Below, one piece after another: positions 1,235 to 23,052 of a stretch of 33,130 nt of DNA (position 1 is its first letter; every line of letters begins with the position of its first letter). Source of the DNA: an uncultured Clostridia bacterium (GTDB lineage Bacteria > Bacillota > Clostridia > Oscillospirales > Acutalibacteraceae); NCBI GenBank assembly GCA_905235625.1, contig CAJOLX010000014.1, positions 1 through 33,130 on the forward strand, read 5' to 3'. Both the position numbers and the translations under genes were made by a program. The notes below the pieces were generated by a model, which searched no databases, was not told the DNA's origin, and worked only from the letters and a program-made list of their open reading frames with translations.

Positions 1235-1314
1235 AAATTTTAATATGTTTGACAAAAGGATTTTACCCTGTTTTTTGATATTGCGAAGAACACACAGCGC
1301 TTAGGAGGGCAAAA

Positions 1315-3399
1315 ATGGAGAACGTAACAGATTATTTCGGCTGCCTCGTTTTTGACGACAGTGTTATGAGAACGAGCCTCCCCGAGGACGTTTACTACAC
1401 TCTCAAGAAGACCATTGACGAGGGCGCGAGCCTCGATATTTCGGTGGCGAACGCGGTTGCCGCCGCAATGAAGGATTGGGCGATCGCAAACGGCGCCACT
1501 CACTACACTCACTGGTTTCAGCCTTTAACGGGCGTTACCGCCGAGAAGCACGACAGCTTCATTGCCCCCGCAGGCGACGGCAAAATAATCATGGAGTTTT
1601 CCGGCAAAGAGCTTATTAAGGGCGAGCCGGACGCTTCGAGCTTCCCCTCGGGCGGCATAAGAGCCACCTTTGAGGCAAGAGGCTACACCGCCTGGGACCC
1701 CACCTCCTACGCTTTCATTAAGGGCAACACCCTTTGCATCCCCACCGCCTTCTGCGCCTACACGGGCGAAGCGCTCGACAAAAAGACCCCGCTTTTAAGG
1801 TCGATGCAGGCGCTCAACAAGCAGGCAATGAGAATTCTTCGCCTTTTCGGCAACACCTCGGCAAAATGCGTTCGTTCCCTCGTGGGCTCCGAGCAGGAAT
1901 ATTTTCTCATTGACAAGGAGCATTACAAGCAGAGAAAAGACCTCATTTTCTGCGGCAGAACCCTTTTCGGCGCTCTTTCCACCAAGGGTCAGGAGATGGA
2001 CGACCACTATTTCGGCGTCATCAAGCCCCGTGTTGCGGCTTATATGAAAGACCTTAACGAGGAGCTTTGGAAGCTCGGTATTCTCGCAAAGACTGAGCAC
2101 AACGAAGTCGCTCCCTCTCAGCACGAGCTCGCTCCCGTTTACACCACCACCAATATCGCAACCGACCACAATCAGCTCACAATGGAAATCATGCAGAAGG
2201 TCGCCGACAGGCACGGCCTCGTCTGCCTGCTTCACGACAAGCCCTTCGCGGGCGTAAACGGCAGCGGCAAGCACAATAACTGGTCGCTCGCCACCGACAC
2301 GGGCGTTAACCTTCTCTCACCCGGCGAAACGCCTTATGAAAACGCTCAGTTCCTTCTGTTCCTCTGCGCCGTAATCAAAGCGGTTGACGATTATCAGGAT
2401 TTGCTGAGAATATCGGTTGCCACCGCCGGCAACGACCACCGTCTCGGAGCTAACGAAGCGCCCCCCGCAATCGTTTCAATGTTCCTCGGCGAGGAGCTTG
2501 ACGCCATTCTCGACGCCATAGAAAACGACAAGCCCTATAACGGCGCCGAAAAAACCGTTATGCGTCTGGGCGTTCACGTGCTGCCCAAATTCCCCAAGGA
2601 TTCAACGGACAGAAACCGCACCTCTCCCTTTGCGTTCACCGGCAACAAGTTTGAGTTCCGTATGCTGGGCTCCGCAAACTCCATAGCCTGCGCCAACATC
2701 ATGCTCAACACCGCGGTCGCGGAATCGCTCAAGGTTTATGCCGACCGACTTGAAAACGTTGATAATTTTGAAGAATCGCTCCACGCGATGATTAAAAAGA
2801 CCATAACCGATCACCGCAGAATTATTTTCAACGGCAACGGCTATGACGATAAATGGGTTGAGGAAGCCGAAAGAAGAGGTCTGCTCAATTACAGGACCAC
2901 GGCGGACTGTATGCCTCACCTGCTCGATGAAAAGAACGTTGAGCTCTTTGCCCGCCACAAGGTGTTTTCGCTCGTTGAGCTCGAGTCCCGCTGCGATATT
3001 ATGCTCGACAATTACTGCAAGAGCGTGCTCATAGAAGCAAAAACGATGTGCGACATGGTGACGAGAGAAATTATACCCGCCGTTGAAAAATACACGGGAA
3101 TAATCGCCGCAAACGCGCTCAAAAAATCGGAATTCTGCTTCAGCGAGTGCAAATATGAGAAAGAAACCGCAGCGATTTTAAGCAAAGACACGGACGAGAT
3201 GTACGTTTGCGCCGGCAAGCTTTCAAAGCTTACCGATAACGCTTCCGCCATTTCCGGCATAATTGAAAAGTCGGCTTACGTGCGCGACGAGATATTGCCT
3301 CAGATGACTTTGCTTCGCTCGTTTGCGGACGAGGCGGAAAAATACACCGCAAAAGAATATTGGCCCTTCCCGACTTACGACGACATTCTTTTCTATTAA
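1315..3399 (+). CDS. glnN: Type III glutamine synthetase
   Basis: This 694-residue enzyme condenses ammonia with glutamate using ATP in the cytoplasm. Its length fits the GSIII family (about 700), not the roughly 450-residue GSI. Visible active-site blocks are [10 protein letters not shown] (191-200, metal-binding glutamates), [10 protein letters not shown] (262-271), [11 protein letters not shown] (314-324, the nucleotide/glutamate loop) and [16 protein letters not shown] (434-449). The ATG at 1315 follows AGGAGGG by five bases. The gene stands alone, with its own promoter and a shared terminator downstream, and no glnR, glnB or amt gene lies nearby. Regulation is probably through the palindrome overlapping its -35 box. 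Confidence 0.96.
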
Positions 3400-3440
3400 G
3401 TTTTTTGCCCGAAATTCGGCAGGCTCAAACAGCATATTTT

Positions 3441-3478
3441 CAAAAAACGCAGGGTACGGATTTTGCTCCGTACCCTGC
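3441..3478 (-). terminator. Terminator between glnN and the convergent surface-protein gene
   Basis: GCAGGGTACGGA (3449-3460) and TCCGTACCCTGC (3467-3478) make a perfect 12-bp stem with a 6-base loop. The A-run at 3442-3447 gives a clean U-tract on the minus strand, so it terminates the leftward gene best. The plus side is only moderately T-rich but may also serve glnN. Confidence 0.85.
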
Positions 3479-3519
3479 AAATTCATTTATAAGGTTTTTG
3501 TTTTCGGTCTGCCGGAAAC

Positions 3520-6504: not shown

Positions 6505-6642
6505 AAAGCCCTCTCCTGTTCCTTAAAAGTTGCGCCGGGCAAGCTCAAAACGCGATTTAAGTTTTGCGGTTTCGGGAGCTGTTTGCGCCGGCAGGGTTGA
6601 TTTTTAAAATGTGGCTGAAAAAGGTTAAAAACCTCCAATCTC

Positions 6643-6671
6643 AGTATAAAACTTTGCAAAAATTATTTCAA
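6643..6671 (-). promoter_or_regulatory. Promoter of the secreted repeat protein
   Basis: Read on the minus strand, TTGAAA (6671-6666) and TATACT (6648-6643) are 17 bases apart. This predicts a 5' leader of about 130 bases before the ATG at 6504. Confidence 0.55.
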
Positions 6672-6734
6672 CGGCAAATACCACAGGATTTTCTTCGCTT
6701 TTTTGTGTAAAAGAACATGGCGGATTTATTATTA

Positions 6735-6763
6735 TTGAATATATCCGCAAAACGTGATATTAT
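6735..6763 (+). promoter_or_regulatory. bioY promoter
   Basis: TTGAAT (6735-6740) and TATTAT (6758-6763) are 17 bases apart, about 65 bases before the bioY start. I found no BirA-type operator. Confidence 0.6.
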
Positions 6764-6828
6764 TTTAACGTATGCGGCGCCCGGCGCAGAAGCGCTTCGC
6801 CGCGAATGCAGGGAAAGGTGTTTAATCA

Positions 6829-7392
6829 ATGCAAAAGCTCATCAACCTAACGGAAATAGCTCTTATGGCTGCGCTTATCGCCGTTTGCGCCTGGGTGACG
6901 GTGCCGACGTCCGTGCCGTTCACTCTTCAAACCTTCGGCGTGTTTCTCGCTCTCTGCTCGCTCGGCTCTCTCAAGGGCAGCGCGAGCGTTGCGCTGTATA
7001 TACTCATAGGCGCCGCGGGAGCGCCTGTTTTTTCGGGTTTTAAGGGCGGCGCGGGCGTTTTGCTCGGGCCTACCGGCGGCTACATAACGGGCTTTCTCGC
7101 AATTTGCGTTTTTTACGCTCTGGGCGAACGCTTTTTCGGCAAAAGCCGAGTCACGCGCATCGTTTCTCTCGCCGCGGGCCTTGCCGCCTGCTACGCGGCA
7201 GGCACATTTTGGTTTGCGAGAGTCATGAGCACGGGCGGCAGCGCAATGACCGTTTTGCAAATTCTTTCGGTATGCGTTTTCCCGTTTATTATTCCGGACT
7301 GCGTTAAGCTTGCCGCGGCGGCGCTCGTTGCCGAAAGAATAACGAAGCTTTTGCCTAAAGCTCCCAAAAAAACGAATAAAAGCGCAGAATAA
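6829..7392 (+). CDS. bioY: Biotin ECF transporter substrate-binding subunit BioY
   Basis: This 187-residue integral membrane protein binds biotin and takes it up, either alone or with the shared energy-coupling EcfA/EcfT module, which is not in this window. The family hallmarks are P-F-T-L-Q-T-F-G-V-F-L (about 27-37), G-A-A-G-A-P-V-F-S-G-F-K-G-G (61-74) and L-L-G-P-T-G-G-Y-I (78-86). About six hydrophobic segments are visible, and the short basic C-terminus is cytoplasmic. The ATG at 6829 follows AAAGGTG. A biotin importer with no bio synthesis genes nearby hints at biotin dependence, but that cannot be judged from one window. The next gene has its own promoter 13 bases after the bioY stop and there is no terminator between them. 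Confidence 0.93.
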   Translation: MQKLINLTEIALMAALIAVCAWVTVPTSVPFTLQTFGVFLALCSLGSLKGSASVALYILIGAAGAPVFSGFKGGAGVLLGPTGGYITGFLAICVFYALGERFFGKSRVTRIVSLAAGLAACYAAGTFWFARVMSTGGSAMTVLQILSVCVFPFIIPDCVKLAAAALVAERITKLLPKAPKKTNKSAE

Positions 7393-7404
7393 AGCTCATT
7401 TTGC

Positions 7405-7433
7405 TTTACATTGCCTGCGTTTTGTTCTATAAT
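7405..7433 (+). promoter_or_regulatory. Promoter of the purA-purB-guaA operon
   Basis: TTTACA (7405-7410) and TATAAT (7428-7433) have a 17-base spacer. The leader of about 80 bases contains a TGCGGGC/GCCCGCA hairpin (7456-7462 with 7477-7483). No T-run follows it, so it is not a terminator. I see no purine-riboswitch or PurR-box pattern. Confidence 0.75.
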
Positions 7434-7518
7434 AAATTGTTACGTTTAATCCTTATGCGGGCTTCTCCGTCAATTTGCCCGCAAAGGCTCATCAATAAAC
7501 ATCAAAGGAGAGAATGAA

Positions 7519-8793
7519 ATGTCAACCTGTGCTATAGTGGGCATAAACTGGGGCGACGAGGGAAAAGGCCGAATGGTGGACCTTCTCACGGAGCAATATG
7601 ACGTTGTTGTGAGGTATCAGGGCGGCGGCAACGCCGGCCATACCGTAATTAACGACAAGGGCAAATTCGCCCTGCATCTGCTTCCCTCGGGCATATTCCG
7701 CCCCGGCGTTGTCAACGTGCTGGGCAACGGCGTTGCTCTCGACGCCGAAAACCTCTGGAACGAAATGCAGCAGGTTATCTCGCAGGGCGTGCCCCTCACT
7801 CCGGATAATCTGAAAATCAGCAGCAGAGCCTCTCTGCTTCTCCCGTGGCACAGGCAGCTTGACGGCCTTGAGGAAGCAAGACTTGCCGATAAGCAATACG
7901 GCTCCACAAAGCAGGGCATAGCTCCGTTTTACAGCGATAAATATCAAAAGAAAACCGTGCTCGCGGGCGAGCTGTTTTACCCCGAAAAGCTCAAAGAGCA
8001 CCTTGCCGACCTGCTTGAGTGGAAAAATCTCACTCTCACGCGCGTTTACGGCGCTCCGGCGGTCACTATGGAAGAGCTGCTCGAATGGGTGAACGATTAC
8101 GGTGAAAAGATAAAGCCCTATATCTGCGACACGGGCGCTTACCTGCGCGACGCTTACAAGCAGGATAAAAGAATACTCTTTGAGGCTCAGCTCGGCTCGC
8201 TCAGAGACCTCGATTTCGGCATAGTTCCCTACACCACCTCGTCAAATCCCGTGGCGGCTTACGCTCCCGTGGGCAGCGGGCTCACAAACGCGAGGGTTGA
8301 AGACGTTATAGGCGTTGTCAAGGCTTATTCCACGTGCGTTGGCGAAGGCCCGTTCACCTGCGAAATGTTCGGCGAAGAAGCGGACAAGCTGCGCGAAGCA
8401 GGCTTTGAATACGGCGCGAAAACGGGCAGACCCAGAAGGGTAGGCCCCATCGACATCGTCGCCACCCGCTACGGCGTTGAGGTGCAGGGCGCAACGGAAA
8501 TAGCGCTCACAAAGCTTGACGTGCTCTCTTATCTCGATAAAATCCCCGTTTGCACAAGATACAAGCTCTACGGCGAGCTCACGGACGAATTCCCGTTCCC
8601 CAGCGCTCTGCCCGACGCGGAGCCGGTTACGGAATATCTTGAAGGCTGGAAAACCGACATTTCGTCTTGCCGCAAATGGGAAGACCTGCCCAAGGCTGCT
8701 CAGGACTACGTGCTTTACGTTGAGGAGCGCATAGGCTGCTTCATCAAATACGTTTCGGTCGGCCCGGAGCGCGACAGCATAATCATCAGATAA
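7519..8793 (+). CDS. purA: Adenylosuccinate synthetase
   Basis: PurA makes adenylosuccinate from IMP, aspartate and GTP, the first committed step to AMP. The 424-residue length is typical. Residues 11-19 (W-G-D-E-G-K-G-R) are the GTP/IMP-binding loop with catalytic Asp13; the usual GKGK reads GKGR here. Residues 35-42 (G-G-G-N-A-G-H-T) carry catalytic His41. A later G-R-P-R-R-V-G block is the IMP-binding arginine region. The start follows AAAGGAG with normal spacing. It is the first gene of a tight operon, 12 bases before purB, and is cotranscribed with guaA. Confidence 0.97.
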   Translation: MSTCAIVGINWGDEGKGRMVDLLTEQYDVVVRYQGGGNAGHTVINDKGKFALHLLPSGIFRPGVVNVLGNGVALDAENLWNEMQQVISQGVPLTPDNLKISSRASLLLPWHRQLDGLEEARLADKQYGSTKQGIAPFYSDKYQKKTVLAGELFYPEKLKEHLADLLEWKNLTLTRVYGAPAVTMEELLEWVNDYGEKIKPYICDTGAYLRDAYKQDKRILFEAQLGSLRDLDFGIVPYTTSSNPVAAYAPVGSGLTNARVEDVIGVVKAYSTCVGEGPFTCEMFGEEADKLREAGFEYGAKTGRPRRVGPIDIVATRYGVEVQGATEIALTKLDVLSYLDKIPVCTRYKLYGELTDEFPFPSALPDAEPVTEYLEGWKTDISSCRKWEDLPKAAQDYVLYVEERIGCFIKYVSVGPERDSIIIR

Positions 8794-8805
8794 GGAGTTT
8801 GCCGA

Positions 8806-10221
8806 ATGTACGATAAATACGAATCTCCGCTGAGCTCAAGATATGCCAGCGATTATATGCTCTCGCTCTTCTCTCACAAAACGAGAATAGTCACCTGGAG
8901 AAGGCTCTGGGTTTCGCTTGCGAGAGCCGAAATGAAGCTCGGCCTGCCCGTTACCGAAGAGCAGGTGAAGGAACTTGAAGAAAACGTTGAAAACATAGAT
9001 TTTGACGTTGCCGCCGCAAGAGAAAAGGAAGTGCGCCACGACGTTATGGCTCACGTTTACGCTTACGGCAAAGCGGCTCCCGGCGCGGCGGGCATAATTC
9101 ACCTGGGCGCAACGAGCTGTTACGTGACGGATAACGCCGATATGATAATTTATCGCGACGCTCTGCTTTATCTCAGAAAAGAGCTGCTCGGCGTTATGGC
9201 AAATCTTTCGGATTTTGCGCTCAAATACAAATCTCTGCCCACTCTCGGCTACACTCATTATCAGCCCGCACAGCTCGTTACGGTCGGCAAAAGAGCCACC
9301 CTCTGGCTCCAGGATTTCGCGTCCGACCTCGAGGAGCTTGATTTCGTTATCGGCTCCATGAAGCTGCTCGGCTGCCGCGGCACCACGGGCACCGAGGCGA
9401 GCTTCGTTGAGCTTTTCTCGGGCGACACGGCAAAAATCGACGAAATGAACGCCCTCATCTGCAAGGATTTCGGCTTTGAAAAATGCTTCTCCGTAAGCGG
9501 CCAGACCTATCCCAGAAAGTTCGATTCGAGAATTCTCAACGTGCTCTCTTCGATAGCTCAGAGCTGCTACAGAATGGCAAACGACATTCGCCTTTTGCAG
9601 CATGACAGGCAGCTTGAAGAGCCGTTTGAAAAGAATCAGATAGGCTCCTCCGCAATGGCTTACAAGCGCAACCCGATGAGAAGCGAAAGAATATGCTCTC
9701 TTTCACGCTATCTCATGGCGGACGCTCTCAACGCTCCCATGACCGCCTCCACGCAGTGGCTTGAAAGAACTCTGGACGACTCCGCGAACCGCAGAATTTC
9801 CGTGCCGGAGGGCTGCCTTTGCGCCGACGCCGTTTTGAGGCTCGCTCAAAACGTTACTAACGGCCTGGTCGTAAACGAAAAAATCGTTGAGCGCACCGTT
9901 ATGGAATATCTTCCGTTCATAGCTACAGAAAATATCCTTATGGAAGGCGTTAAGCGCGGCGGCAACCGCCAGGAGCTGCACGAGGTCATAAGAGTGTGCT
10001 CAATGGAAGCCACCGCAAGAATGAAAGCGGGCGAAAGCTGCAATCTGCTTGAGCTGCTTGCCGCGAGACCGGAATTTGACCTCACGGAAGAAGAGCTTAA
10101 AGCGGTGCTTGACCCGTCGCTCTATATCGGCCGCTGCCCCGAGCAGGCGGAGGCTTACGTAAACGAGCTTGCCCCCGTTATAGCGCAGGCTGAAAGAACC
10201 AATCCGGACATCAACGTTTGA
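8806..10221 (+). CDS. purB: Adenylosuccinate lyase
   Basis: PurB splits adenylosuccinate to AMP and fumarate, and SAICAR to AICAR in de novo purine synthesis. It belongs to the fumarase/aspartase superfamily. The signature loop G-S-S-A-M-A-Y-K-R-N-P-M-R-S-E (280-294) carries the mobile catalytic serine. Other family blocks are R-H-D-V-M-A-H (77-83), H-L-G-A-T-S (99-104) and G-Y-T-H-Y-Q-P-A-Q (148-156). At 471 residues it is the longer form common in Clostridia and eukaryotes, not the roughly 430-residue Bacillus form. The AAGGAG site lies just after the purA stop. Confidence 0.97.
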   Translation: MYDKYESPLSSRYASDYMLSLFSHKTRIVTWRRLWVSLARAEMKLGLPVTEEQVKELEENVENIDFDVAAAREKEVRHDVMAHVYAYGKAAPGAAGIIHLGATSCYVTDNADMIIYRDALLYLRKELLGVMANLSDFALKYKSLPTLGYTHYQPAQLVTVGKRATLWLQDFASDLEELDFVIGSMKLLGCRGTTGTEASFVELFSGDTAKIDEMNALICKDFGFEKCFSVSGQTYPRKFDSRILNVLSSIAQSCYRMANDIRLLQHDRQLEEPFEKNQIGSSAMAYKRNPMRSERICSLSRYLMADALNAPMTASTQWLERTLDDSANRRISVPEGCLCADAVLRLAQNVTNGLVVNEKIVERTVMEYLPFIATENILMEGVKRGGNRQELHEVIRVCSMEATARMKAGESCNLLELLAARPEFDLTEEELKAVLDPSLYIGRCPEQAEAYVNELAPVIAQAERTNPDINV

Positions 10222-10238
10222 CTTGAAGGTAACGATAT

Positions 10239-11771
10239 ATGGAAAAAATTCTCGTTCTTGATTTCGGCGGCCAGTACAATCAGCTTATCGCAAGGCGCGT
10301 AAGGGATGAGCACGTTTACGCCGAAATAAAAGCTTACAGCAAAATAACCGCGGACAAAATAGCCTCCGAAGGCTATGCCGGCATAATTTTCACCGGAGGG
10401 CCAAACAGCGTTTACGACCCTTCGTCGCCGCATTTTGACCCTGCCGTTTTGAACCTCGGAATACCCGTGCTCGGCATTTGCTACGGCTGCCAGCTCATGG
10501 CTTATATGGAAAACGGAGAGATTTGCTCCGCCGGCAGCATCAGCGAATACGGCAAAGTGGATTTGACCGTTAAGCAGAGCCCTCTGTTTAAAAACGTTCC
10601 CGAAAAAAGCGTTTGCTGGATGAGCCACACGGATTACGTGAAAACTCCGCCTGCACATTTTGAGATAATCGCTTCAACCGATAACTGCCCCGTTGCCGCG
10701 ATGTGCGACGAGAGCAGAAATCTCTACGCCGTTCAGTTCCACCCCGAGGTCACTCACACCGAATACGGCAAAGCGATCCTTCACAATTTCCTTTATGACG
10801 TCTGCCGCTGCAAGGGCGAGTGGACTATGGAGAATTTTGCCGCGTCTTCGATTGAAAAATACCGCGAAACTCTCAAGGGCAAGAGAGTGCTCTGCGCCCT
10901 GAGCGGGGGAGTGGATTCCTCCGTTGCCGCCGTTATGCTCCACAAGGCGATAGGCGACAACCTCACCTGCGTTTTCGTTGACCACGGTCTTTTGCGCAAG
11001 GACGAGGGCGACATAGTTGAAAACACCTTCAAAACCAAGATGGGCCTTAACCTCATCAGAGTTAACGCGAGCGACAGGTTCCTCGCAAAGCTCGAGGGCG
11101 TTACCGAGCCCGAAAAGAAAAGAAAGATAATCGGCGAGGAATTTATCCGCGTCTTTGAAGAAGAAGCAAAAAAAATAGGCAAGGTGCAGGTGCTCGTTCA
11201 GGGCACCATATACCCCGACGTTGTTGAGAGCGGCGCGGGCGACGCTGCGGTCATCAAGAGCCACCACAACGTGGGCGGCCTGCCGGACGTTATCGACTTT
11301 GACGAGATAGTCGAGCCGCTGAGAAACCTCTTTAAGGACGAGGTTAGAGCCGTCGGAATAGAGCTCGGCATACCTTATGAGCTCGTTTGGCGCCAGCCCT
11401 TCCCGGGCCCCGGCCTCGCGATAAGAGTTATGGGCGACATCACGAAAGAGAAGCTCGACACTCTGCGCCTTGCGGACGCCATTTTCCGCGAGGAAATCTT
11501 GAACGCAGGCCTTGAGCGCGACGTTAATCAGTATTTTGCCGTGCTCACCAATAACCGCACCGTCGGCGTTATGGGCGACGCGCGCACCTACGGCTACACC
11601 GTAGCCCTCAGAGCCGTTTCAACCGACGATTTCATGACCGCCGACTGGTCGCGCCTGCCATACGACGTGCTCGCCAGAGCAAGCGCCAGAATAACCAACG
11701 AGGTTCATTCCGTCGGCCGAGTCGTCTATGACGTCACAAGCAAACCCCCCGCCACAGTGGAGTGGGAGTAA
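10239..11771 (+). CDS. guaA: GMP synthase (glutamine-hydrolysing)
   Basis: GuaA aminates XMP to GMP using ATP and glutamine. The N-terminal class I glutamine amidotransferase has the nucleophile in G-I-C-Y-G-C-Q (Cys81; the usual Met after Gly is Cys here) and the His168/Glu170 pair in Q-F-H-P-E. The ATP pyrophosphatase P-loop is S-G-G-V-D-S-S (222-228). The C-terminal dimerisation domain ends with the conserved K-P-P-A-T-V-E-W-E. The 510-residue length is normal. The start is 17 bases after purB, behind GAAGGT. With purA and purB it covers both branches from IMP except guaB, which is not in the window. A strong terminator ends the operon. Confidence 0.97.
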
Positions 11772-11815
11772 GCTTTGCTTTCCTTTGACGAATCGAATCA
11801 AAAGCGGTATAAAGC

Positions 11816-11855
11816 AGCCGGGGCTGGTCTTTTGACAGCCCCGGCTGAAGTTTTT
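11816..11855 (+). terminator. Terminator of the purA-purB-guaA operon
   Basis: AGCCGGGGCTG (11816-11826) pairs with CAGCCCCGGCT (11836-11846), an 11-bp GC-rich stem with a 9-base loop. It is followed by GAAG and five Ts. Confidence 0.9.
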
Positions 11856-11937
11856 ATCGGTTTTCAAAATAATGAATCGGCAAAGCCGGCACAAATCGGA
11901 ACGAAAACGGAAGGACTTATCGGTTCTTGTTTTGCTC

Positions 11938-13074
11938 TTATACTGCAAGGTATCTTTCGAATACTATGTCGGCGGCGGATTTAACGTTTACGTCTTCTCC
12001 GGCGCAGGATGGCAGAACTCTGACGGGAATGCTGTTTCTTCTCAGAATGCGGCTGTTAATGCCTTTCTCCATAGCGGGGATGAGCTTTTCCGAGCCGTAG
12101 AGCAAATCGCCCGCGAGCAGCACGGTATCAATGCTTATAACGTTTGCCATTGAGGCAATTCCCGAGGCGAGATATTCCGCTTCAAGCTTTATTAAATCCC
12201 GGGCGTCGCTCTCATTGTCGGATTCGTCTGTTACCTGCTTCCAGCTTTCAAAGCGGGTGCCTTCGAGCAAATTCGGTATTGCGGCGTAGGCTTCAAGGCA
12301 GCCTCTGTTGCCGCAAGCGCATTTTTTGCCCCTGTAATTTATGGTGACGTGGCCGAGCTCCCCCGTGAAGCTGCCGGCACCCTTCAGCGCCTGACCGTCC
12401 GCGATAATTCCCGAGCCCACTCCGCTGTCAACGAGCAGCAGCAAGAAGTTTCTGCTGCCGTTCGCTTCGGGTTTATCAAGATTATATTGAGCGAGGCTTG
12501 TCGCGTTGTTTTCAAGGTAAACGGGCAGGTCGAGAGCGGAGCTTAAAATGCCCGTTATTTCGGTATTGTGCCAAAGGTCAAAGCGGGGAGGATTGATTAT
12601 CATGCCCCTTTCGCCGTCGAGAGGTCCCGGAGCGGAAACTCCCACTCCGATAATTTTTTCGCGCGGCAAATTTGTTTCTCTTATGATTGCTTTGATTTCT
12701 TCGGCGAGGGCGTTCAGCCCGTCGGGAGCGCCGCTTTCAAGGCGGATTCGCCGCTTGGCAAAAACGCCGCCCGCAAAATCGACTGCGCCTATCGTGCAGC
12801 CGTCGCGGTTAAGATAAACGCCCACCGCGCAGCCGGCGTCGGCTCTCAAAACGAGCGGCACGGGAGTGCGGCCCCTCTGCGTTTCGCAGGTGGAGGACTC
12901 CGCGATTATGCCAGCTTCGAGCAGCTCGTCCGCTATGAGCGACGCCGCGGAGCGTGTAAGGCCCATCTGCCTTGCGATTTCCGCCCGTGACATCGGCTTT
13001 GATCGGAGCAGCCGCAAAAACATTTTTCTGTTGTATTCTTTGGTATATTCGGCGTTTCTCGCGCTTTTGCCCAT
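11938..13074 (-). CDS. ROK-family transcriptional repressor
   Basis: This 378-residue protein starts with a MarR/winged-helix-like DNA-binding domain (15-60: L-R-S-K-P-M-S-R-A-E-I-A-R-Q-M-G-L-T). A ROK sugar-sensing domain follows, with G-V-G-V-S-A-P-G-P (143-151) and the zinc site G-E-L-G-H (238-242) plus C-x-C-G-N-x-G-C-L-E (252-261). Where ROK kinases have the catalytic aspartate in E-N-D-A, this protein reads E-N-N-A (188-191). That supports a regulatory rather than kinase role, as in XylR/NagC-type proteins. It is 18 bases downstream of the phosphomannose-isomerase-like gene, forming a two-gene operon. It probably binds the palindrome at 14216-14238 that lies between this operon and the glycyl-radical operon. 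The inducer is unknown. Confidence 0.9.
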   Translation of the reverse strand: MGKSARNAEYTKEYNRKMFLRLLRSKPMSRAEIARQMGLTRSAASLIADELLEAGIIAESSTCETQRGRTPVPLVLRADAGCAVGVYLNRDGCTIGAVDFAGGVFAKRRIRLESGAPDGLNALAEEIKAIIRETNLPREKIIGVGVSAPGPLDGERGMIINPPRFDLWHNTEITGILSSALDLPVYLENNATSLAQYNLDKPEANGSRNFLLLLVDSGVGSGIIADGQALKGAGSFTGELGHVTINYRGKKCACGNRGCLEAYAAIPNLLEGTRFESWKQVTDESDNESDARDLIKLEAEYLASGIASMANVISIDTVLLAGDLLYGSEKLIPAMEKGINSRILRRNSIPVRVLPSCAGEDVNVKSAADIVFERYLAV

Positions 13075-13092
13075 TTTCGCTTACTCCGTGTT

Positions 13093-14151
13093 TCAGTCGC
13101 CGCCTTTGCAGCAAACCATTTTTATTTTGCCGCCTGTTGAAACGGCGCATTTGCCTGTGGCAGCGGCGGGCAGGAAGAAATATTCACCCGCTCCGATTTT
13201 TCTATCATATCCGTCCGAAATAACCTTGCCTTCGCCTTCAACGCATATCCAGACGGATGCGGGAGCGGCGAGGGTCATTTGAGCTTTTTCGATTGAAAAT
13301 CTGTTCATCGAGAAGCAGGGCGTTTCGCTTTGCCCGATGAGCTCCTCCGCGAGCACGCCGCCCGAATTTGAGAGGACTTTCGGCTCTTTTCTGCCGCTTT
13401 CGAGAGCGGCGGCGCCGTATTTTTCAAAGTCGAAACATTCGAGAGCTGTTTCTTTGTCGAGCCCGAGATACATTTCCCTGTCATTGAGCTTGTAATCGGC
13501 GCACCAATGCTCCGGCTGGATTGTGAAATCCGTCGGCTCCTGCACCTCGAGAATGAGGCAGCCCGCTCCTATCGCGTGAATTACTCCCGCGCCGACGAAA
13601 AACACATCTCCGCTTTTGACGGGCACACGGTTCACGAAAGAGGTCATTATCTCTTTATCCGTTTCGCTCTTGTCAACGGCGAGCGAAAATTCCTCTTTGC
13701 TCACCCGCCTGTCAAAGCCGAAATATATGCAGGCGCCGGGGCGTGTAGCAAGCACGAGCCACGCCTCAGCCTTGCCGTAAGTAGAGTTAAAATGCTTTTC
13801 GGAATAAGCCCTCGTCGGGTGCGCCTGCATCGGCAGGCGAACGGCGCTGTCAAGGTATTTGACGAGCACGCCGACGTCATCCCGCTCGCCGAGATAAGCC
13901 TCTTTATTTTCGGCGATAAGCTCGCTAAACGGCTTGCCGTCCTCTTCTCTCAAAGAAATGCCCTCGAGAGGGTCGGTTCTGCCCGGATTTATGGCTCTTA
14001 CGCTCGAGCAAATCCATTCCTCGGGCATATTGCCGTCTTCGGCGGGGTCGCCGAGCAGCTCGTGAAAGAGCTTGCCGCCTCTGTAAACTCTGAAAACACG
14101 GTTCCTTCTGAAAAATACGGGCAGATACGGGCTTTTATCGGCATTTTGCAA
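13093..14151 (-). CDS. Mannose-6-phosphate isomerase-like cupin (class I)
   Basis: This 352-residue cytoplasmic metalloenzyme belongs to the ManA family, which interconverts fructose-6-phosphate and mannose-6-phosphate. Metal-site motifs are M-Q-A-H-P (108-112), the following K-H-F (119-121), G-K-A-E-A-W (126-131), and A-G-V-I-H-A-I-G-A-G (188-197) with L-E-V-Q-E-P-T-D-F (201-209). The start is a TTG codon (14151-14149) placed correctly behind AGGAGGG. The nearby ATG is out of frame, so the rare start looks real. The gene lies ahead of the ROK regulator and is divergent from a glycyl radical enzyme operon. Its true substrate may therefore be a different sugar phosphate from that module, and I would not fix it as ManA. 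Confidence 0.88.
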   Translation of the reverse strand: MQNADKSPYLPVFFRRNRVFRVYRGGKLFHELLGDPAEDGNMPEEWICSSVRAINPGRTDPLEGISLREEDGKPFSELIAENKEAYLGERDDVGVLVKYLDSAVRLPMQAHPTRAYSEKHFNSTYGKAEAWLVLATRPGACIYFGFDRRVSKEEFSLAVDKSETDKEIMTSFVNRVPVKSGDVFFVGAGVIHAIGAGCLILEVQEPTDFTIQPEHWCADYKLNDREMYLGLDKETALECFDFEKYGAAALESGRKEPKVLSNSGGVLAEELIGQSETPCFSMNRFSIEKAQMTLAAPASVWICVEGEGKVISDGYDRKIGAGEYFFLPAAATGKCAVSTGGKIKMVCCKGGD

Positions 14152-14196
14152 AGCTATCCCTCCTAAATCGGGCTGATTTCAATTCTGTCTCAAATA

Positions 14197-14224
14197 ATTA
14201 TATCATTCTTTGCTTTTTTGTCAA
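14197..14224 (-). promoter_or_regulatory. Leftward promoter of the isomerase-ROK operon
   Basis: On the minus strand, TTGACA (14224-14219) and TATAAT (14202-14197) are 16 bases apart, a perfect consensus pair. The -35 box lies in the left arm of the palindrome at 14216-14238. Confidence 0.8.
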
Positions 14225-14238
14225 GTCACTTGACAAAA
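14216..14238. promoter_or_regulatory. 23-bp palindromic operator shared by divergent promoters
   Basis: TTTTGTCAAG (14216-14225) and CTTGACAAAA (14229-14238) are perfect inverted arms around TCA. Each arm contains the -35 box of one of the two divergent promoters, so a single bound dimer could block both. The likely protein is the ROK repressor encoded leftward; this is inferred from position. Confidence 0.75.
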
Positions 14239-14258
14239 TCCGAGCCTTGCTATATAAT
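14230..14258 (+). promoter_or_regulatory. Rightward promoter of the glycyl radical enzyme operon
   Basis: TTGACA (14230-14235) and TATAAT (14253-14258) with a 17-base spacer form an exact consensus promoter. The -35 box is inside the right arm of the operator palindrome. Transcription would begin near 14265, about 55 bases before the activase start. Confidence 0.85.
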
Positions 14259-14318
14259 TTAAACGTATTATTGTATCTACTTATCGGATTGGCGCGGCGC
14301 CTTTGGGCGAGAGGTAAT

Positions 14319-15047
14319 ATGGAGATAAGAATTTTTCAAAAGGGCTTTAATTTTTCGCAGGACGGCCCCGGAAACAGGCTCGTTTATCATTTGCAGGGCT
14401 GCAATTTGCGCTGCCCGTGGTGTTCAAATCCCGAAGGTCTCGTATCGGGCTCGGGCGCCGCTTATACCGTTGACGAGATAGTTGACGAGGTAAAGCGCAG
14501 CGAAATGATGTTTTTTGACGGCGGAGGCGTTACCCTCACCGGCGGAGAGGCGACCGTTCAGTTTGAAGCGGTCAAGGAGCTGCTTTGCCGCCTTCATGAA
14601 AACGGCGTAAACACCTGCATTGAAACCAACGGAATTTGCGCCCGCCTGCCCGAGCTGTTCCCCTATCTTGACCTGCTCATTGCGGACGTAAAGCACTACG
14701 ACCCGGTTAAGCACAAGCAGGTCACGGGGCTTTCAAACGAGATGACGCTCGAAAACATCAAAATTGCTCTCGCGCAGGGGCAAAAAACCGCTCTTCGCAT
14801 TCCGCTCATAGGCGGGTTCAACGCGGAGGAAGAGGACGCAAAGCAGTTTGCCGCTCTCTTCGGCGGCTTAAAATCCGAAGGCGATTTCACCGTTGAGCTT
14901 TTGCCTTATCACGAATACGGCAAGGATAAATACGGCGCGCTCGGCGTTGACTACAAAATGACTGAGCAGGCGAAGGTCGGCGGCGAACGCCTGATTAAAT
15001 TCAAAAAAATCCTTGAAAACTCCGGTATAACCGTTATAAAAACTTAA
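14319..15047 (+). CDS. Glycyl radical enzyme activase (radical SAM, PflA-like)
   Basis: This enzyme uses a [4Fe-4S] cluster and S-adenosylmethionine to install the glycyl radical on the partner enzyme encoded next. From the chosen start it has 242 residues. The cluster motif is C-N-L-R-C-P-W-C (Cys28, Cys32, Cys35; CxxxCxxC), and the G-G-G-V-T-L-T-G-G-E block is the SAM-binding region. It is the short PflA-like form, without the extra ferredoxin insert of many dehydratase activases. The frame is open back to 14247, but that region contains the predicted transcription start. The ATG at 14319 has GAGAGG upstream and begins the conserved M-E-I-R-I-F-Q-K-G-F, so I prefer it. It sits 13 bases before the glycyl radical enzyme, and activase-first order is less usual. 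Confidence 0.93.
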   Translation: MEIRIFQKGFNFSQDGPGNRLVYHLQGCNLRCPWCSNPEGLVSGSGAAYTVDEIVDEVKRSEMMFFDGGGVTLTGGEATVQFEAVKELLCRLHENGVNTCIETNGICARLPELFPYLDLLIADVKHYDPVKHKQVTGLSNEMTLENIKIALAQGQKTALRIPLIGGFNAEEEDAKQFAALFGGLKSEGDFTVELLPYHEYGKDKYGALGVDYKMTEQAKVGGERLIKFKKILENSGITVIKT

Positions 15048-15060
15048 CGATGCGAAAGGA

Positions 15061-17445
15061 ATGAATAAAATGAAATTGTTTCAGACTGTCGGCCCCGACA
15101 AGCTGACCGAAAAAGCGAAGGCGCTTTATATTGAAGAGCGCAAAAGCCACAAGATACTGAACGGATGGTTTCTCGCAAAAGAAATCGCATCGGACGAGGC
15201 GGAAAAGCATAAAGACGCAGAGCCCGAAATGCGCGCCGCCTTTGAGCTTGAAGCCGTTATAAGAAACATTCCCATTGAAATAAGCGAAAACGCAATTTTA
15301 GCGGGCACTCAGCGCGATGCGTTCGCCGCGAGCTACGCCCTCATAAATCCCGCGTTCAAGGTTGAAACTTTCAGAGGTTACTGCAACCCTCTGGAGGTTT
15401 ACGACTATGCCACCCCGACCGAGGAAATTCCAGAGAAGCGCATAGCCGCCATGCGCGAGCGCTACGCTCAAACGCCTTACGTCAAGGCGCTCAATGAGGT
15501 TTACGGAGAATATTCGGAATACACCGAAGAGGTCGCGTTTTTTATTGAACAGGTTACGGGCCACATGATACCCGATTTTCAGCCCGCGCTCAGATACGGC
15601 GTAAAAACCCTCATTGAAAAAATCGGCGAAAAAATTGAAAAAGAGGATTTGACCGGGGAGCAAAAGACCAATCTTAAAGCAATGCAGAAGAGCCTTAACT
15701 GCTCGGTCATTCTGGCGAACCGCTACGCAGACCTTGCCTCGTCGCTCAAAGAAACCGCCTCGGGCAGCCGCAGGCAAGAGCTTGAAATTATGGAAGAAAC
15801 CCTGCGCAAAGTGCCGGAATACGGAGCGGAAAATCTTTATGAAGCGATGCAGTCTTACGTTTTTCTCTGGCAGGTGATGTGCCTCGAGCAGGCTCCGAAT
15901 CCCTTTGCGTTCTCCGTAGGAAACGCCGACCGCATTTTTGAGCCCTACCGCGCCGCCGATAATTTAAGCCGCGATGAGGCCGCCGCTCTGTTTAAGCATT
16001 TTCTCGTATTCTTTAACGTGGGCGAGAGAAGCTGGGCAATATCTCAAAACGTGCTCATAAGCGGCAGAGACGTTGACGGAAACGACCTCACAAACGAGAT
16101 GAGCTACGCCATTCTTGACGCTTATTACGACATGAAGCTGCCGCAGCCGATTCTCTCGGTGAAGGTGCATAAGAACACTCCTCACAGGCTTTATGAAGAA
16201 ATGGGCCGTTTCTTCTTCACGCCCGGCATGCTCACGCCTTCTTTCTTCAATGACGATTCGCTGTTTGAAACTCTCGGCGAGCACGGCGTTAAAGCGGAGG
16301 ACCTGCCCGCCTATTCAGTAGCGGGCTGTCAGGAGCCTTTGATAATGGGCAAAGACAACGCGAACACCACCAACAGCTGGCTCAATATGGGCAAGGTGCT
16401 TGAGCTGACTCTCACGGGCGGCAAATCCGCGATTACGGGCGCGCAAATCGGCCCTCAGACGGATTATGACGCCGAATATATTCTCAAAAATCTGCGCCCC
16501 CTCTTCTATGAAAATCTGCAATTCGTCTGCGAAAAAATGCGCGACGCCGCAAACGGAGCGTCACGCGCTCTTTCGCTGCTGCCCGTTCCGTTTTTGAGCT
16601 GTTTTGAAGGCGGAGCGGATTCAGGCTACGACGTTCGCGACACCCGTCATCAGGGCACGCCCTACAACGGCAGCGGCTGCCTCATTCACGGGCTTTCGAT
16701 AATCGCCGATTCCTTCGTCGCAGTCGACCGCTTGCTTAAAGAGCGCCCGGAGGACGCGCAAAATCTCATTGACGCCTGCAAATGCAACTTTGAAGGCTAC
16801 GAGGAGCTCAGAGAATATCTCAAGGCCTGCCCCAAATACGGCAACAACATACCCGAAGCGGACGAAGAAGCGGCGGAAATTGCCGCAAAGGTTTCAGACA
16901 TGGTCGGAGGTCTTAAAAACTACCTCGGCAATCCGTTCAGACCGGACTGGAGCTCGCCCTCGACTCATCTCACCTACGGCTACTGGGTGGGAGCGACCCC
17001 CGACGGGCGCGGCGCAAGGGAGCAGATGGGCTACGGCATTGACCCGCTGTTCAGCACGGCGGGCTCGGGGCTCGGCTTCCGCACGCTGTCTACAATGAGG
17101 CTTCCGTTTGAAAAATTCAACGGAGGATGCGCCTCTCATTTCGGCATTGACCCGAAATATTTCACCGCGGACACCGACGAGGAAAAGGGCGCTCAGTTTT
17201 ACACCCGGGTGCTTGAGCCTCTGTTTTTCAATAAATTCAACGACAAACGCGCGCCGTTTTATCTTTACGTTAACGTCACCACGGCGGAAACTTTGCGCAA
17301 GGTTTTGGCGGAGCCCGAAAAATACGCTCCGAGCGGAGTGTACATCATGCGCATTCACGGCACGTTCGTAAACTTCCTCGATCTCAGCCCCGCCATTCAG
17401 GAGGATATAATTCTCAGGCTGGATCCCGCATCCACAAGCTGTTGA
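15061..17445 (+). CDS. Glycyl radical enzyme of unassigned substrate
   Basis: This 794-residue protein belongs to the pyruvate formate-lyase/glycyl radical family. The active-site loop is S-V-A-G-C-Q-E-P (419-426). Cys423 is the thiyl residue and Glu425 occupies the acid/base position of the glycerol/diol dehydratase and lyase clade. PFL itself has two adjacent cysteines, so this is not PFL. The radical loop R-I-H-G-T-F-V-N-F (764-772) puts the radical on Gly767, and both the His before it and the Thr after it differ from the common R-V-x-G-Y. A G-H-M-I-P-D block (167-172) matches the family's N-terminal active-site wall. The activase lies 13 bases upstream and an FGGY kinase 9 bases downstream. 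There are no microcompartment shell genes or aldehyde dehydrogenase. A phosphorylated or free sugar/polyol substrate is inferred from context. Confidence 0.92.
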   Translation: MNKMKLFQTVGPDKLTEKAKALYIEERKSHKILNGWFLAKEIASDEAEKHKDAEPEMRAAFELEAVIRNIPIEISENAILAGTQRDAFAASYALINPAFKVETFRGYCNPLEVYDYATPTEEIPEKRIAAMRERYAQTPYVKALNEVYGEYSEYTEEVAFFIEQVTGHMIPDFQPALRYGVKTLIEKIGEKIEKEDLTGEQKTNLKAMQKSLNCSVILANRYADLASSLKETASGSRRQELEIMEETLRKVPEYGAENLYEAMQSYVFLWQVMCLEQAPNPFAFSVGNADRIFEPYRAADNLSRDEAAALFKHFLVFFNVGERSWAISQNVLISGRDVDGNDLTNEMSYAILDAYYDMKLPQPILSVKVHKNTPHRLYEEMGRFFFTPGMLTPSFFNDDSLFETLGEHGVKAEDLPAYSVAGCQEPLIMGKDNANTTNSWLNMGKVLELTLTGGKSAITGAQIGPQTDYDAEYILKNLRPLFYENLQFVCEKMRDAANGASRALSLLPVPFLSCFEGGADSGYDVRDTRHQGTPYNGSGCLIHGLSIIADSFVAVDRLLKERPEDAQNLIDACKCNFEGYEELREYLKACPKYGNNIPEADEEAAEIAAKVSDMVGGLKNYLGNPFRPDWSSPSTHLTYGYWVGATPDGRGAREQMGYGIDPLFSTAGSGLGFRTLSTMRLPFEKFNGGCASHFGIDPKYFTADTDEEKGAQFYTRVLEPLFFNKFNDKRAPFYLYVNVTTAETLRKVLAEPEKYAPSGVYIMRIHGTFVNFLDLSPAIQEDIILRLDPASTSC

Positions 17446-17454
17446 GGTGAGCGT

Positions 17455-18753
17455 ATGAAGGCTCTCGGAATTGACGCAGGCACAACCACCGTGTGCGCCG
17501 CTGTCGTGGAAAACGGCGTTTTGCTTGACAGCGTTACGGCGCCGAATAACTCCGCTTTGGTCGCCGCCAATCAATGGGAAAAAGCGCAGGACCCGAATAT
17601 AATACGCGACGCGGCTTTAAAAGCGGCGGACGAACTTTTTGAAAAGCACCCGGATATAGCCAAAATAGGCGTTACGGGGCAGATGCACGGCATTCTTTAT
17701 CTTGACGGCGAAGGCGCGCCTCTGAGCCCTCTTTACACCTGGCAGGACGGGCGCGGAAATCTGCCCTATGATTCTTGCCGCTCTTACGCCGCTTACCTCG
17801 GCGAGCTGACGGGATACGGCGTTTCGTCGGGCTACGGCTCCGTCACTCATTTTTACAATGTAAAAAACGGCATTGCGCCCGAAAACGCGGCGGTTTTCTG
17901 CACGGTTCACGACTATATCGCAATGTCGCTTTGCGGCAATTCTTCGTCCGTTACGGACTCAACTGACGGCGCGAGCTTCGGGCTGTTTGATTTAAAAAAG
18001 AACTGCTTTGACGCCGAAGCGTTTGCGAAAGCCGGCATGAGCCCCGCAATTCTTCCGAAGATTTCGGACGGCAGCCCTATCGGCTTTTACAAAGGCTCGG
18101 TGCCCGTTTACGCCGCGATAGGCGACAATCAGGCGAGCTTTATAGGCGCGTCCGGCGGCAGGCGTGAAACCATGCTCATAAATGTGGGCACGGGCAGTCA
18201 GTTTTCCGCCTACACGGAAGAATATATGGAATGCCCCGGGCTTGACACCCGCCCCTTCCCGGGCGGCGGATACCTTATCGTCGGCGCTTCCCTTTGCGGC
18301 GGCAGGGCTTACGCTCTGCTCGAGCGCTTTTTCAGAGAATCCGTTAAAGAAATAACGGGCCGATCGCCCGAAAGCTGTTACGACGCAATGGCTGAAATTC
18401 TGAGCGAAGGAATGCCCGATAATATCCCGACAGTCAGCCCTCTGTTTCAAGGCACGAGGGAAAATCCCGATCTTCGCGGCAGCATAACGGGTCTTGACAC
18501 CGACAATTTCACTCCCCGCCATTTGCTTTGGGGCATGCTCAACGGCATGGCAAGAGAGCTTTACGATATGTATCTCGGCTACAAAAACGCGGGCGGCGCC
18601 GATTATGAATTGACAGGCTCGGGAAACGGCCTTCGCAAAAACAAATATCTGCAGGAGCGCTTTGAAAAGCTTTTCGGCATGCCGATTAAGATGTCCGATT
18701 GCCGTGAAGAAGCGGCTTGCGGAGCGGCTCTTTACGCGATAGGCAAATCTTAA
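17455..18753 (+). CDS. FGGY-family carbohydrate kinase
   Basis: This 432-residue sugar kinase transfers phosphate from ATP to a sugar or polyol in the cytoplasm. The N-terminal phosphate loop is G-I-D-A-G-T-T-T (5-12). The Q-M-H-G-I-L-Y-L-D block (about 76-84) and W-Q-D-G-R-G resemble the sedoheptulokinase/xylulokinase branch. The second ATPase half has I-N-V-G-T-G-S-Q and the adenosine motif L-T-G-S-G-N-G-L-R-K-N. It is somewhat shorter than typical FGGY kinases (about 490). Its start overlaps the end of the glycyl radical gene's Shine-Dalgarno region (GAGGTGAG, 9 bases from the preceding stop), so the two are co-translated neighbours. No clear terminator follows. It probably phosphorylates the substrate, or the product, of the glycyl radical enzyme. 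Confidence 0.9.
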   Translation: MKALGIDAGTTTVCAAVVENGVLLDSVTAPNNSALVAANQWEKAQDPNIIRDAALKAADELFEKHPDIAKIGVTGQMHGILYLDGEGAPLSPLYTWQDGRGNLPYDSCRSYAAYLGELTGYGVSSGYGSVTHFYNVKNGIAPENAAVFCTVHDYIAMSLCGNSSSVTDSTDGASFGLFDLKKNCFDAEAFAKAGMSPAILPKISDGSPIGFYKGSVPVYAAIGDNQASFIGASGGRRETMLINVGTGSQFSAYTEEYMECPGLDTRPFPGGGYLIVGASLCGGRAYALLERFFRESVKEITGRSPESCYDAMAEILSEGMPDNIPTVSPLFQGTRENPDLRGSITGLDTDNFTPRHLLWGMLNGMARELYDMYLGYKNAGGADYELTGSGNGLRKNKYLQERFEKLFGMPIKMSDCREEAACGAALYAIGKS

Positions 18754-18949: not shown

Positions 18950-19023
18950 GCAGGGTTAGTATATCGGTAATACAGACGCTTCCCAAGCCTCAGCGGCGGG
19001 TTCGACTCCCGTACCCTGCTCCA
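18950..19023 (+). tRNA. tRNA-Gly (anticodon CCC)
   Basis: The 74-base sequence folds as a cloverleaf. The acceptor GCAGGGT pairs with ACCCTGC and is followed by T and an encoded CCA. The D-arm is GTAT...ATAC, the anticodon loop is TTCCCAA, and the T-arm has GCGGG-TTCGACT-CCCGT. The anticodon CCC reads glycine GGG codons. The anticodon stem GACGC/GCCTC has a central C-C mismatch, which is unusual but leaves four pairs. Confidence 0.92.
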
Positions 19024-21765: not shown

Positions 21766-23052
21766 TTATTTAAGAGCCGCAAAGCCTTTTTCAAGGTCTG
21801 CGATAATGTCGTCTATGTGCTCGGTGCCGATTGAAAGACGAATGGTGTTCTGATGGATATCCTGATCCTCAAGCTCTTCGGCAGAAAGCTGTGAGTGCGT
21901 GGTGGTCGCGGGGTGAATTACGAGGGACTTAACGTCCGCAACGTTTGCAAGCAGTGAGAATATCTCAAGATTGTCGATGAATTTGTGAGCTTCCGCCTGG
22001 CCGCCCTTTATATCAAATGTGAATATTGAAGCGCCGCCGTTCGGGAAATACTTCTTGTAAAGCTCATGCTGAGGATGATCGGGAAGAGAAGGATGATTGA
22101 CCTTTTCAACGAGCGGATGATTTGCGAGATATTCAACGACCTTCTTGGTGTTCTCCGCATGGCGCTCAAGACGAAGGGAAAGAGTTTCAATGCCCTGGAG
22201 AAGAAGGAATGCGTTGAAGGGAGAAATCGCTGCGCCGGTATCTCTGAGCAGAATTGCTCTGATGTAAGTAACGTATGCCGCCGCGCCTGCCGCCGCTGTG
22301 AAAGCCACGCCGTGATAGCTGGGGTTGGGCTTTGCGATCGCTGGGTATTTATCGGCGTTCGCAGCCCAGTCAAATTTGCCGGAGTCAACGATTATGCCGC
22401 CGAGAGTGGTGCCGTGGCCGCCGAGGAATTTGGTTGCGGAGTGAACAACTATGTCCGCGCCGTGCTCGATGGGCCTGATGAGATAAGGCGTGCCGAAGGT
22501 GTTGTCAATTACGAGAGGAATGTTGTTTGAATGAGCTATTTCGGCAAGAGCGTCAATGTCGGGGATGTCGCTGTTGGGGTTGCCGAGGGTTTCAATGAAT
22601 ATCGCCTTGGTGTTCGGCTTAACGGCAGCCTTAACCTCATCAAGATTGTGTATATCAACAAACGTGGTGTCGATGCCGTAGTTGGGAAGGGTGTGAGCGA
22701 GCAGATTGAAGCTGCCGCCGTAAATGGTCTTTTGAGCAACGATGTTGTCGCCCTTGCTTGCGAGCGCCTCAATGGCGTAAGTGATCGCCGCGGCGCCGGA
22801 AGCGGTTGCGAGAGCTGCTACGCCGCCTTCGAGAGCGGCAACTCTCTTTTCAAGCACGTCCTGGGTGGAGTTTGTAAGTCTGCCGTAAATGTTGCCGGGG
22901 TCTGCAAGACCGAAGCGGGCGGCTGCGTGAGCCGAATTATGGAAAACGTAAGAAGTGGTCTGATAAATGGGAACTGCTCTGGAATCGGTTGCGGGGTCTG
23001 CCTGTTCCTGGCCTACGTGAAGCTGAAGGGTTTCAAATTTATAGTTACTCAT
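21766..23052 (-). CDS. metY: O-acetylhomoserine sulfhydrylase (PLP-dependent)
   Basis: MetY joins O-acetylhomoserine with sulfide to give homocysteine, a direct-sulfhydrylation route to methionine. The 428-residue length is typical of MetY and longer than MetB/MetC (about 380-400). The family N-terminus F-E-T-L-Q-L-H-V-G-Q-E is present. Y-Q-T-T-S-Y-V-F, the PLP-lysine block H-S-A-T-K-F-L-G-G-H-G-T and the V-I-D-N-T-F-G-T-P-Y region that carries the PLP-ring aspartate all match. The start follows AAAGGAG by normal spacing. The gene is preceded by a long leader with a small ORF and hairpins, and beyond that a LysR regulator in the same orientation, which is the likely sulfur-responsive controller. 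Confidence 0.94.
   Translation of the reverse strand: MSNYKFETLQLHVGQEQADPATDSRAVPIYQTTSYVFHNSAHAAARFGLADPGNIYGRLTNSTQDVLEKRVAALEGGVAALATASGAAAITYAIEALASKGDNIVAQKTIYGGSFNLLAHTLPNYGIDTTFVDIHNLDEVKAAVKPNTKAIFIETLGNPNSDIPDIDALAEIAHSNNIPLVIDNTFGTPYLIRPIEHGADIVVHSATKFLGGHGTTLGGIIVDSGKFDWAANADKYPAIAKPNPSYHGVAFTAAAGAAAYVTYIRAILLRDTGAAISPFNAFLLLQGIETLSLRLERHAENTKKVVEYLANHPLVEKVNHPSLPDHPQHELYKKYFPNGGASIFTFDIKGGQAEAHKFIDNLEIFSLLANVADVKSLVIHPATTTHSQLSAEELEDQDIHQNTIRLSIGTEHIDDIIADLEKGFAALK

Follow-up and report, generated by a model that had tools for sequence, protein, structure and literature searches.

The analysed window, a 33,130-nucleotide stretch of contig CAJOLX010000014.1 (assembly GCA_905235625.1) from an uncultured clostridial bacterium of the Acutalibacteraceae, carries a glycyl radical enzyme (GRE) that stands apart from the characterised families and is embedded in a divergent set of five genes. 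On the plus strand, a radical S-adenosylmethionine (SAM) GRE activase of 242 amino acids (aa), lacking the long ferredoxin-type insert (14319..15047), is followed by the GRE itself (794 aa, 15061..17445), which is of the Cys-X-Glu (CXE) type, and by a short FGGY carbohydrate kinase (432 aa, 17455..18753) nearest to xylulokinase models. The minus strand encodes a phosphomannose isomerase (PMI)-like metal cupin (352 aa, TTG start, 13093..14151) and, as second gene of this left operon, a ROK-family repressor (378 aa, 11938..13074). Between the two operons lies a perfect palindrome, TTTTGTCAAGT-C-ACTTGACAAAA (14216..14238), a probable operator of the ROK protein. An earlier sequence-only reading had described these five gene types around a shared palindrome, and all five are found where it placed them, except that the ROK gene (minus strand) falls outside the span it had given for the whole.

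Scanning a one-genome-per-species collection confirmed 122 places with related loci. The tallies below are taken from the best 80 of these (58–77% identity, designated by L numbers) and describe the near family only. Judged by their sequence titles, the 80 loci belong mostly to gut and rumen Clostridia, joined by an Anaerolineae bin, Claveliimonas bilis and Sporanaerobium hydrogeniformans. Neighbours were counted by tblastn, as clusters of open reading frames (ORFs) gave counts that were too low owing to antisense ORFs; these overlap the GRE gene in six loci (cluster c8) and were judged artefacts. Of the loci with long enough flanks, 74 of 76 have the activase upstream of the GRE and 62 of 73 have the kinase downstream of it, in 53 cases within 60 bases. 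Another sample, 297 genomes of the order, yielded six GRE loci beyond that of the window, all with adjoining activase and kinase and three with the cupin; since one of them (L119) duplicates the contig of L063, five are new. Checked for co-occurrence, as had been suggested, the neighbours turned out to be conserved in related genomes. Since the cupin requires 11 changes on the GRE tree and the ROK gene 13, these two fit the role of accessory parts of the module; the cupin figure is slightly high because a row filter labelled L060, whose cupin is present, as lacking it.

Membership of the GRE superfamily is clear from the PFL-like domain (PF02901, 2.9e-111), from a predicted model that matches GRE structures, and from Cys423 and Gly767, both invariant in 36 aligned rows. 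The protein nevertheless scores below every curated NCBIfam cut-off. Its best model, TIGR01774 (PFL2/glycerol dehydratase subfamily), yields 245 bits against a cut-off of 678, whereas ten other GREs of the phylum reach 500–920 bits. The models for HypD, CutC, sulfopropanediol dehydratase and indoleacetate/hydroxyphenylacetate decarboxylase give 48–186 bits against cut-offs of 1000–1150, and PRK09983 gives 169 against 1109, which places the GRE outside YbiW/PflD by sequence. Among solved proteins the closest is glycerol dehydratase (192 bits); Streptococcus PflD (8id0, 163), E. coli PflD (139) and YbiW (106) score lower, and the same order was obtained with a profile of the GRE family. This profile, built from 36 members, gave 1422 bits for the window's GRE. 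Across 398 genomes of the phylum, with up to two candidates scored in each, no other scored match went beyond 283 bits; of 29 rival GREs that were fetched, the highest reached 296 bits once its whole ORF was rescored. Because of this gap we regard the GRE as a discrete, isolated family without intermediates in the 398-genome sample, a separateness that rests on profile scores. By the same scores it did not cluster tightly with any of the characterised families tested, in agreement with the sequence-only reading. Seven of the 297 genomes of the order, including that of the window, contain the GRE, in one copy each. In the window's genome it is the only PF02901 protein, and a separate pyruvate formate-lyase is therefore absent.

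Two motifs define the family. GCQEP, with the codons of the catalytic Cys423-Gln424-Glu425 at 16327..16335 (+), and RIHGTFVNF, with the codon of Gly767, the expected radical site, at 17359..17361 (+), are each kept in 80 of 80 loci. The Gln in place of the common Val and the deviating loop around Gly767, both pointed out before, are thus family features. His168, Cys423 and Glu425 are invariant in the 36 aligned rows and match, in an alignment with known GREs, the His-Cys-X-Glu set of GRE eliminases, for which PMC7077986 gives the CXE motif as hallmark and describes the role of the set. The Cys loop hence has the Cys-X-Glu of an eliminase, and at the position of the Cys-Cys pair of pyruvate formate-lyase, seen in E. 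coli PflB in the alignment, it has Cys-Gln. Directly before the Gly loop, three residues are present in the family that E. coli PflD, YbiW and PflB lack.

An AlphaFold2 model of the GRE (pLDDT 83.4, with residues 89–106, 324–327 and 635–666 below 50) was compared with known structures by Foldseek, and glycerol dehydratase 1r8w came first (TM 0.80); the PflD-AM6P and YbiW-AG6P entries followed at ranks 27 and 39. Since the B12-independent glycerol and 1,2-propanediol dehydratases (1r8w, 5i2g, 9rco) are the top matches by sequence or fold and have the Cys, the Glu and the His168 equivalent in common with the GRE, it could be a drifted glycerol- or propanediol-type diol dehydratase. But identity to these enzymes is only 22–24%, and the pocket differs. 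His281, Ser282 and Asp447, the diol-binding residues of glycerol dehydratase, correspond to F/Y282, A283 and T437 in the GRE family (alignment with 1r8w, columns read manually). In addition, S328 and W440 occupy the positions of HypD Phe340 and Tyr450, again by manual column reading. The pocket is therefore unlike that of the diol dehydratases. Also invariant in the family are R323, R627, T437 and W440, candidate contacts for an anion and the substrate. Propanediol or microcompartment genes were not seen among the module neighbours examined. For the window, the previously noted lack of microcompartment genes holds for the six proteins scanned, the remaining window genes not having been scanned for these families. 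With the GRE tied to a sugar kinase as well, we consider a diol dehydratase very unlikely.

The activase scores above the cut-off of TIGR02494 (5e-57) and contains a Radical_SAM domain (Pfam, 2.1e-20); its ORF opens at a TTG at 14247, with the ATG at 14319 as the likely start, and ends at 15047 (+). The repressor combines a ROK domain (PF00480, 2.5e-39) with a helix-turn-helix portion that is detected only as weak, sub-threshold MarR-type matches, and thus has both parts of a ROK repressor; its nearest NCBIfam models are the NagC/Mlc regulators, below cut-off. As for the palindrome, its 11-base arms TTTTGTCAAGT and ACTTGACAAAA flank a central C to give 23 bp, and none of 2,000 mononucleotide shuffles of the intergenic stretch produced arms of at least 11. 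No second match with up to three mismatches occurs in the window. Similar palindromes immediately precede the activase gene in L011, L003, L002 and L007 (0–3 changes) and in L081 (4 changes), and all five loci have a ROK gene. From this the palindrome is the probable operator of the ROK repressor.

The cupin scores 60 bits with TIGR00218 (manA; cut-off 116) and finds MPI_cupin and Cupin_2 only below threshold, and a profile of its family matches B. subtilis ManA (1qwr) at 2.5e-30. Q109, H111, E129 and H192 are invariant in 21 aligned rows and occupy the metal-ligand positions of PMI. In contrast to type I PMI, Gln takes the position of the active-site Arg of ManA in 35 of 35 cupin relatives. 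Given this replacement, and since the window's genome encodes a separate ManA above cut-off, the cupin is probably not the ordinary mannose-6-phosphate isomerase of the cell. It may isomerise a phosphorylated intermediate, as had been proposed, but with an invariant Gln at the Arg position it may equally well act on a free aldose.

The kinase comprises FGGY_N (3.3e-22) and FGGY_C (7.5e-7) domains by Pfam. It may resemble sedoheptulokinase, as had been noted. Its nearest curated model is TIGR01312 (XylB), whose cut-off of 380 bits it misses with 112, so that the 432-aa protein is not a xylulokinase by this measure; a GQMHG motif is shared with the XylB-family kinase of L038. Five further FGGY kinases are encoded in the window's genome. 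In L081 (12368-14926) the kinase and the PMI-like cupin are fused in one 852-aa ORF, and for this reason the two probably catalyse consecutive steps. Eleven of the 73 eligible loci have no module kinase downstream. In four of them a XylB-family kinase takes its place upstream (L013, L038 and L078 above the XylB cut-off; L079 74% identical to L078), in L010 the GRE is immediately followed by a PfkB-type kinase, L069 shows, on inspection by eye, a ROK-type sugar kinase together with a SIS protein, and no substitute kinase was seen in L023, L027, L053, L071 and L075. In the window, a tRNA-Gly (CCC) gene lies at 18950-19023 (+), about 200 bases past the kinase gene.

The exchange of kinase types between loci bears on the order of the steps. 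XylB kinases act on D-xylulose, a ketose, according to PMC3245297, and together with the swapped kinases and the missing ManA Arg of the cupin this would accord with a GRE that works first. Its substrate would then be a glycoside, polyol or anhydro-sugar without a phosphate group, and cupin and kinase would isomerise and phosphorylate the free sugar that it yields. The genes upstream of the module in L078 and L079, namely Zn- and SDR-type dehydrogenases and an Rbs-like importer (the importer identified by eye), point the same way. However, a PMI-like enzyme could not isomerise a dehydration product that lacks the 2-hydroxyl, and the residues that hold free diols in glycerol dehydratase are replaced in the GRE. 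We therefore think it unlikely that the GRE precedes the kinase.

A further candidate reaction is suggested by an O-acetylhomoserine sulfhydrylase that directly follows the kinase in L012, L018, L024, L040 and L055 and lies divergently in L017, L019, L020 and L042 (those of L018 and L042 above the family cut-off). Here the GRE would cleave the C–S bond of a sulfur-bearing sugar, releasing sulfite or a thiol, and the sulfhydrylase would capture the sulfur. Yet this distinct subfamily adjoins the module in only 9 of 80 loci, accounted for by two changes in one part of the GRE tree. Moreover, Arg678 of isethionate lyase, its sulfonate contact, aligns with Asp629 of the GRE, and a sulfoquinovose cluster of a known type is already encoded in the window's genome. 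On these three grounds we set the sulfur-sugar reading aside as hardly credible. The window itself encodes an O-acetylhomoserine sulfhydrylase at 21766-23052 (-), 3 kb past the kinase and 43–48% identical to the subfamily of the relatives. The sulfoquinovose cluster is of the transaldolase type (L122, G000:C10:10500-24500, positions 1283-8376) and includes a YihQ-family sulfoquinovosidase (PRK10426, 758 bits against 553) and an SftI-like isomerase (403 against 700), besides an SftT-like transaldolase, a dehydrogenase, a TauE-like exporter and a GPH-type symporter recognised by eye. A methylthioribose reading was dropped too, the papers that it led to in the open-access PMC literature being unrelated by title.

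Sugar-related genes accompany the module in several relatives. In L008-L010 a PfkB-type kinase and a class II aldolase stand behind the GRE, and the aldolases of L008 and L010 score above the TIGR00167 cut-off. The fullest operon is that of L008. Ahead of the module it contains, in this order, genes recognised by eye as an importer, an aldo-keto reductase and a second pair of activase and GRE; the activase, GRE and kinase of the module are then followed by a PfkB-type kinase (closest to ribokinase, but under that cut-off), a class II aldolase and two aldo-keto reductases. L009 agrees over the stretch covered by its contig, and L010 over the PfkB-type kinase, the aldolase and one reductase. L065 has a class II aldolase upstream of the module, and in L057 a gene of the fructose-6-phosphate aldolase (FSA) family is inserted between GRE and kinase (314 bits, cut-off 246). 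Another FSA-type gene lies 1.6 kb from the module on the other strand in L079, and L078 has an enzyme of the glycerol dehydrogenase family. Glycosidases of GH38 (near L046, L053, L060 and L064), GH2 (L063, L065 and L070) and GH32 (L013, L038 and L068) occur as well, called by Pfam in L053, L060, L063, L013 and L068 and by identity in the remaining loci, as do an arabinofuranosidase-type protein near L026 and L049 and a GPH symporter near L016 (Pfam). Taken together, the neighbours would fit a sugar or polyol pathway that ends in aldol cleavage in some relatives. Cysteinyl-tRNA synthetase, LytR-type, ArgJ and MreB neighbours were judged housekeeping flanks. Among other observations, the second GRE in the L008 stretch 1926-17470 has 688 aa, its own activase and PflD as best PDB match (265 bits) and stands directly before the module, importer-like genes lying on one side and aldolase genes on the other, with a similar situation in L009; a second GRE activase closes the module in L063 (14631-15464) and L070, where no second GRE was seen adjoining; and a secreted-looking protein of 516–537 aa follows the kinase in L017, L019, L020 and L042 (about 13780-15390), its L042 copy without a Pfam match.

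The aldolases recall YbiW and PflD, which share with the GRE the CXE motif, a sugar-phosphate setting and aldolase neighbours (FsaA/FsaB in E. coli, the FSA-family gene in L057). A 2024 study in JACS reportedly presents both as 1,5-anhydrohexitol 6-phosphate GREs, and the PDB entry titles agree: Streptococcus PflD and E. coli YbiW have been solved with 1,5-anhydromannitol 6-phosphate and 1,5-anhydroglucitol 6-phosphate. The module could accordingly represent anhydroglycolysis by a second family. The kinase would yield a 1,5-anhydrohexitol 6-phosphate, and the GRE would open its ring to 1-deoxyfructose 6-phosphate; in this route, fructose-6-phosphate aldolase then releases hydroxyacetone and glyceraldehyde 3-phosphate, and a GldA-type enzyme reduces the hydroxyacetone. 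In E. coli, ybiW adjoins fsaA, and pflD lies near fsaB and gldA; L057 and L079 have an aldolase of this family, and L078 has the glycerol dehydrogenase-family enzyme. But the GRE lies outside the YbiW/PflD group, being closer to glycerol dehydratase in bit score. GCQEP contrasts with GCVEL/GCIET, and GTFVNF, with three extra residues before the Gly loop, contrasts with GYSAFF, and E. coli pflD adjoins phosphotransferase system (PTS) genes whereas the module has an FGGY kinase and a cupin. A 1-deoxy product requires no PMI-like cupin, and as it cannot take a phosphate at C1, this route gives no account of the class II aldolase and PfkB-type kinase found in L008-L010. The only FSA-family match in the window's genome sits in the sulfoquinovose cluster and resembles a sulfofructose transaldolase, so that this genome lends anhydroglycolysis no support. 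Nor is there a useful association across genomes: of 7 genomes with the GRE, 3 have an FSA-family gene, as do 4 of 15 others. Ring opening by YbiW/PflD is thus the nearest known chemistry, but the GRE is, by sequence, not a member of that family, and we consider this route improbable. By analogy with YbiW/PflD, an anhydro-sugar is still a plausible substrate.

From enzyme types, linkage and conservation, all read from sequence, we infer an order of steps and a class of substrate. With moderate confidence, we propose a regulated anaerobic sugar-catabolic module that would comprise isomerisation, phosphorylation to a ketose phosphate, elimination by the GRE and aldol cleavage. The ROK protein would repress both operons from the palindrome until it binds the sugar, and the activase would generate the radical on Gly767. 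The cupin would convert an aldose to a ketose, of which the FGGY kinase would phosphorylate the terminal hydroxyl. The GRE would most likely work on this ketose phosphate or a close derivative: a thiyl radical at Cys423 would abstract hydrogen at a carbon that bears a hydroxyl. Glu425 and His168 would help to expel water or a ring oxygen as the leaving group next to this carbon, so that a deoxy-keto sugar or its phosphate is formed. An aldolase, encoded next to the module in some relatives, would cleave the product into trioses. A more specific version, that the ketose is derived from a widespread plant sugar, for example mannose or fructose, and is, once phosphorylated, dehydrated or opened by the GRE to an aldolase-cleavable deoxy-keto sugar phosphate, is tentative and on balance doubtful. 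To our knowledge, no GRE performs the formation of a deoxy-keto sugar phosphate from a ketose phosphate. The original interpretation of a sugar or polyol kinase paired with a GRE finds partial backing in the sugar-phosphate setting (the linked kinase, the L081 fusion and the few operon aldolases), which points to no particular sugar and to no particular order of kinase and GRE.

Several observations weigh against the proposed pathway. The PMI-like cupin was found in only 35 of the 70 loci with 2.6 kb downstream, a count that missed L060, and in 36 of 80 at a laxer threshold. No FGGY kinase of either type was seen in 7 of 73 loci (L010, L023, L027, L053, L069, L071 and L075), the contig stopping shortly upstream in L010, L069 and L071. 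Each type of aldolase, transporter or glycosidase is limited to few loci, the glycosidase type varies by clade, and in many loci the flanks resemble housekeeping genes and, by eye, include no transporter. The window's genome has no fructose-6-phosphate aldolase save the sulfofructose transaldolase-like one. Regarding regulation, a ROK gene like that of the window is present in 16 of 80 loci (22 at a laxer threshold), and the palindrome precedes the activase in five of these 16 and not in the other 11; it was not seen before the activase in the close relative L118 either, and three further sites with up to three changes occur elsewhere in the 80 loci (L002, L053 and L054; 1.40 Mb searched).

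In the open-access PMC literature we found no account of a GRE paired with an FGGY kinase, nor of the module as such, although one may exist elsewhere. Much of the unusual chemistry in anaerobic gut communities depends on GREs, and newly found GRE families have often brought new metabolic routes to light. The conserved set of GRE, kinase and, in part of the loci, isomerase in gut and rumen bacteria suggests an undescribed route of anaerobic sugar breakdown. Here, a discrete GRE family with invariant motifs of its own is accompanied by a kinase, a cupin and, in some relatives, aldolases, which narrow its reaction far enough for a short panel of sugars to test it. The module is of interest because assays with such a small panel would decide its function.

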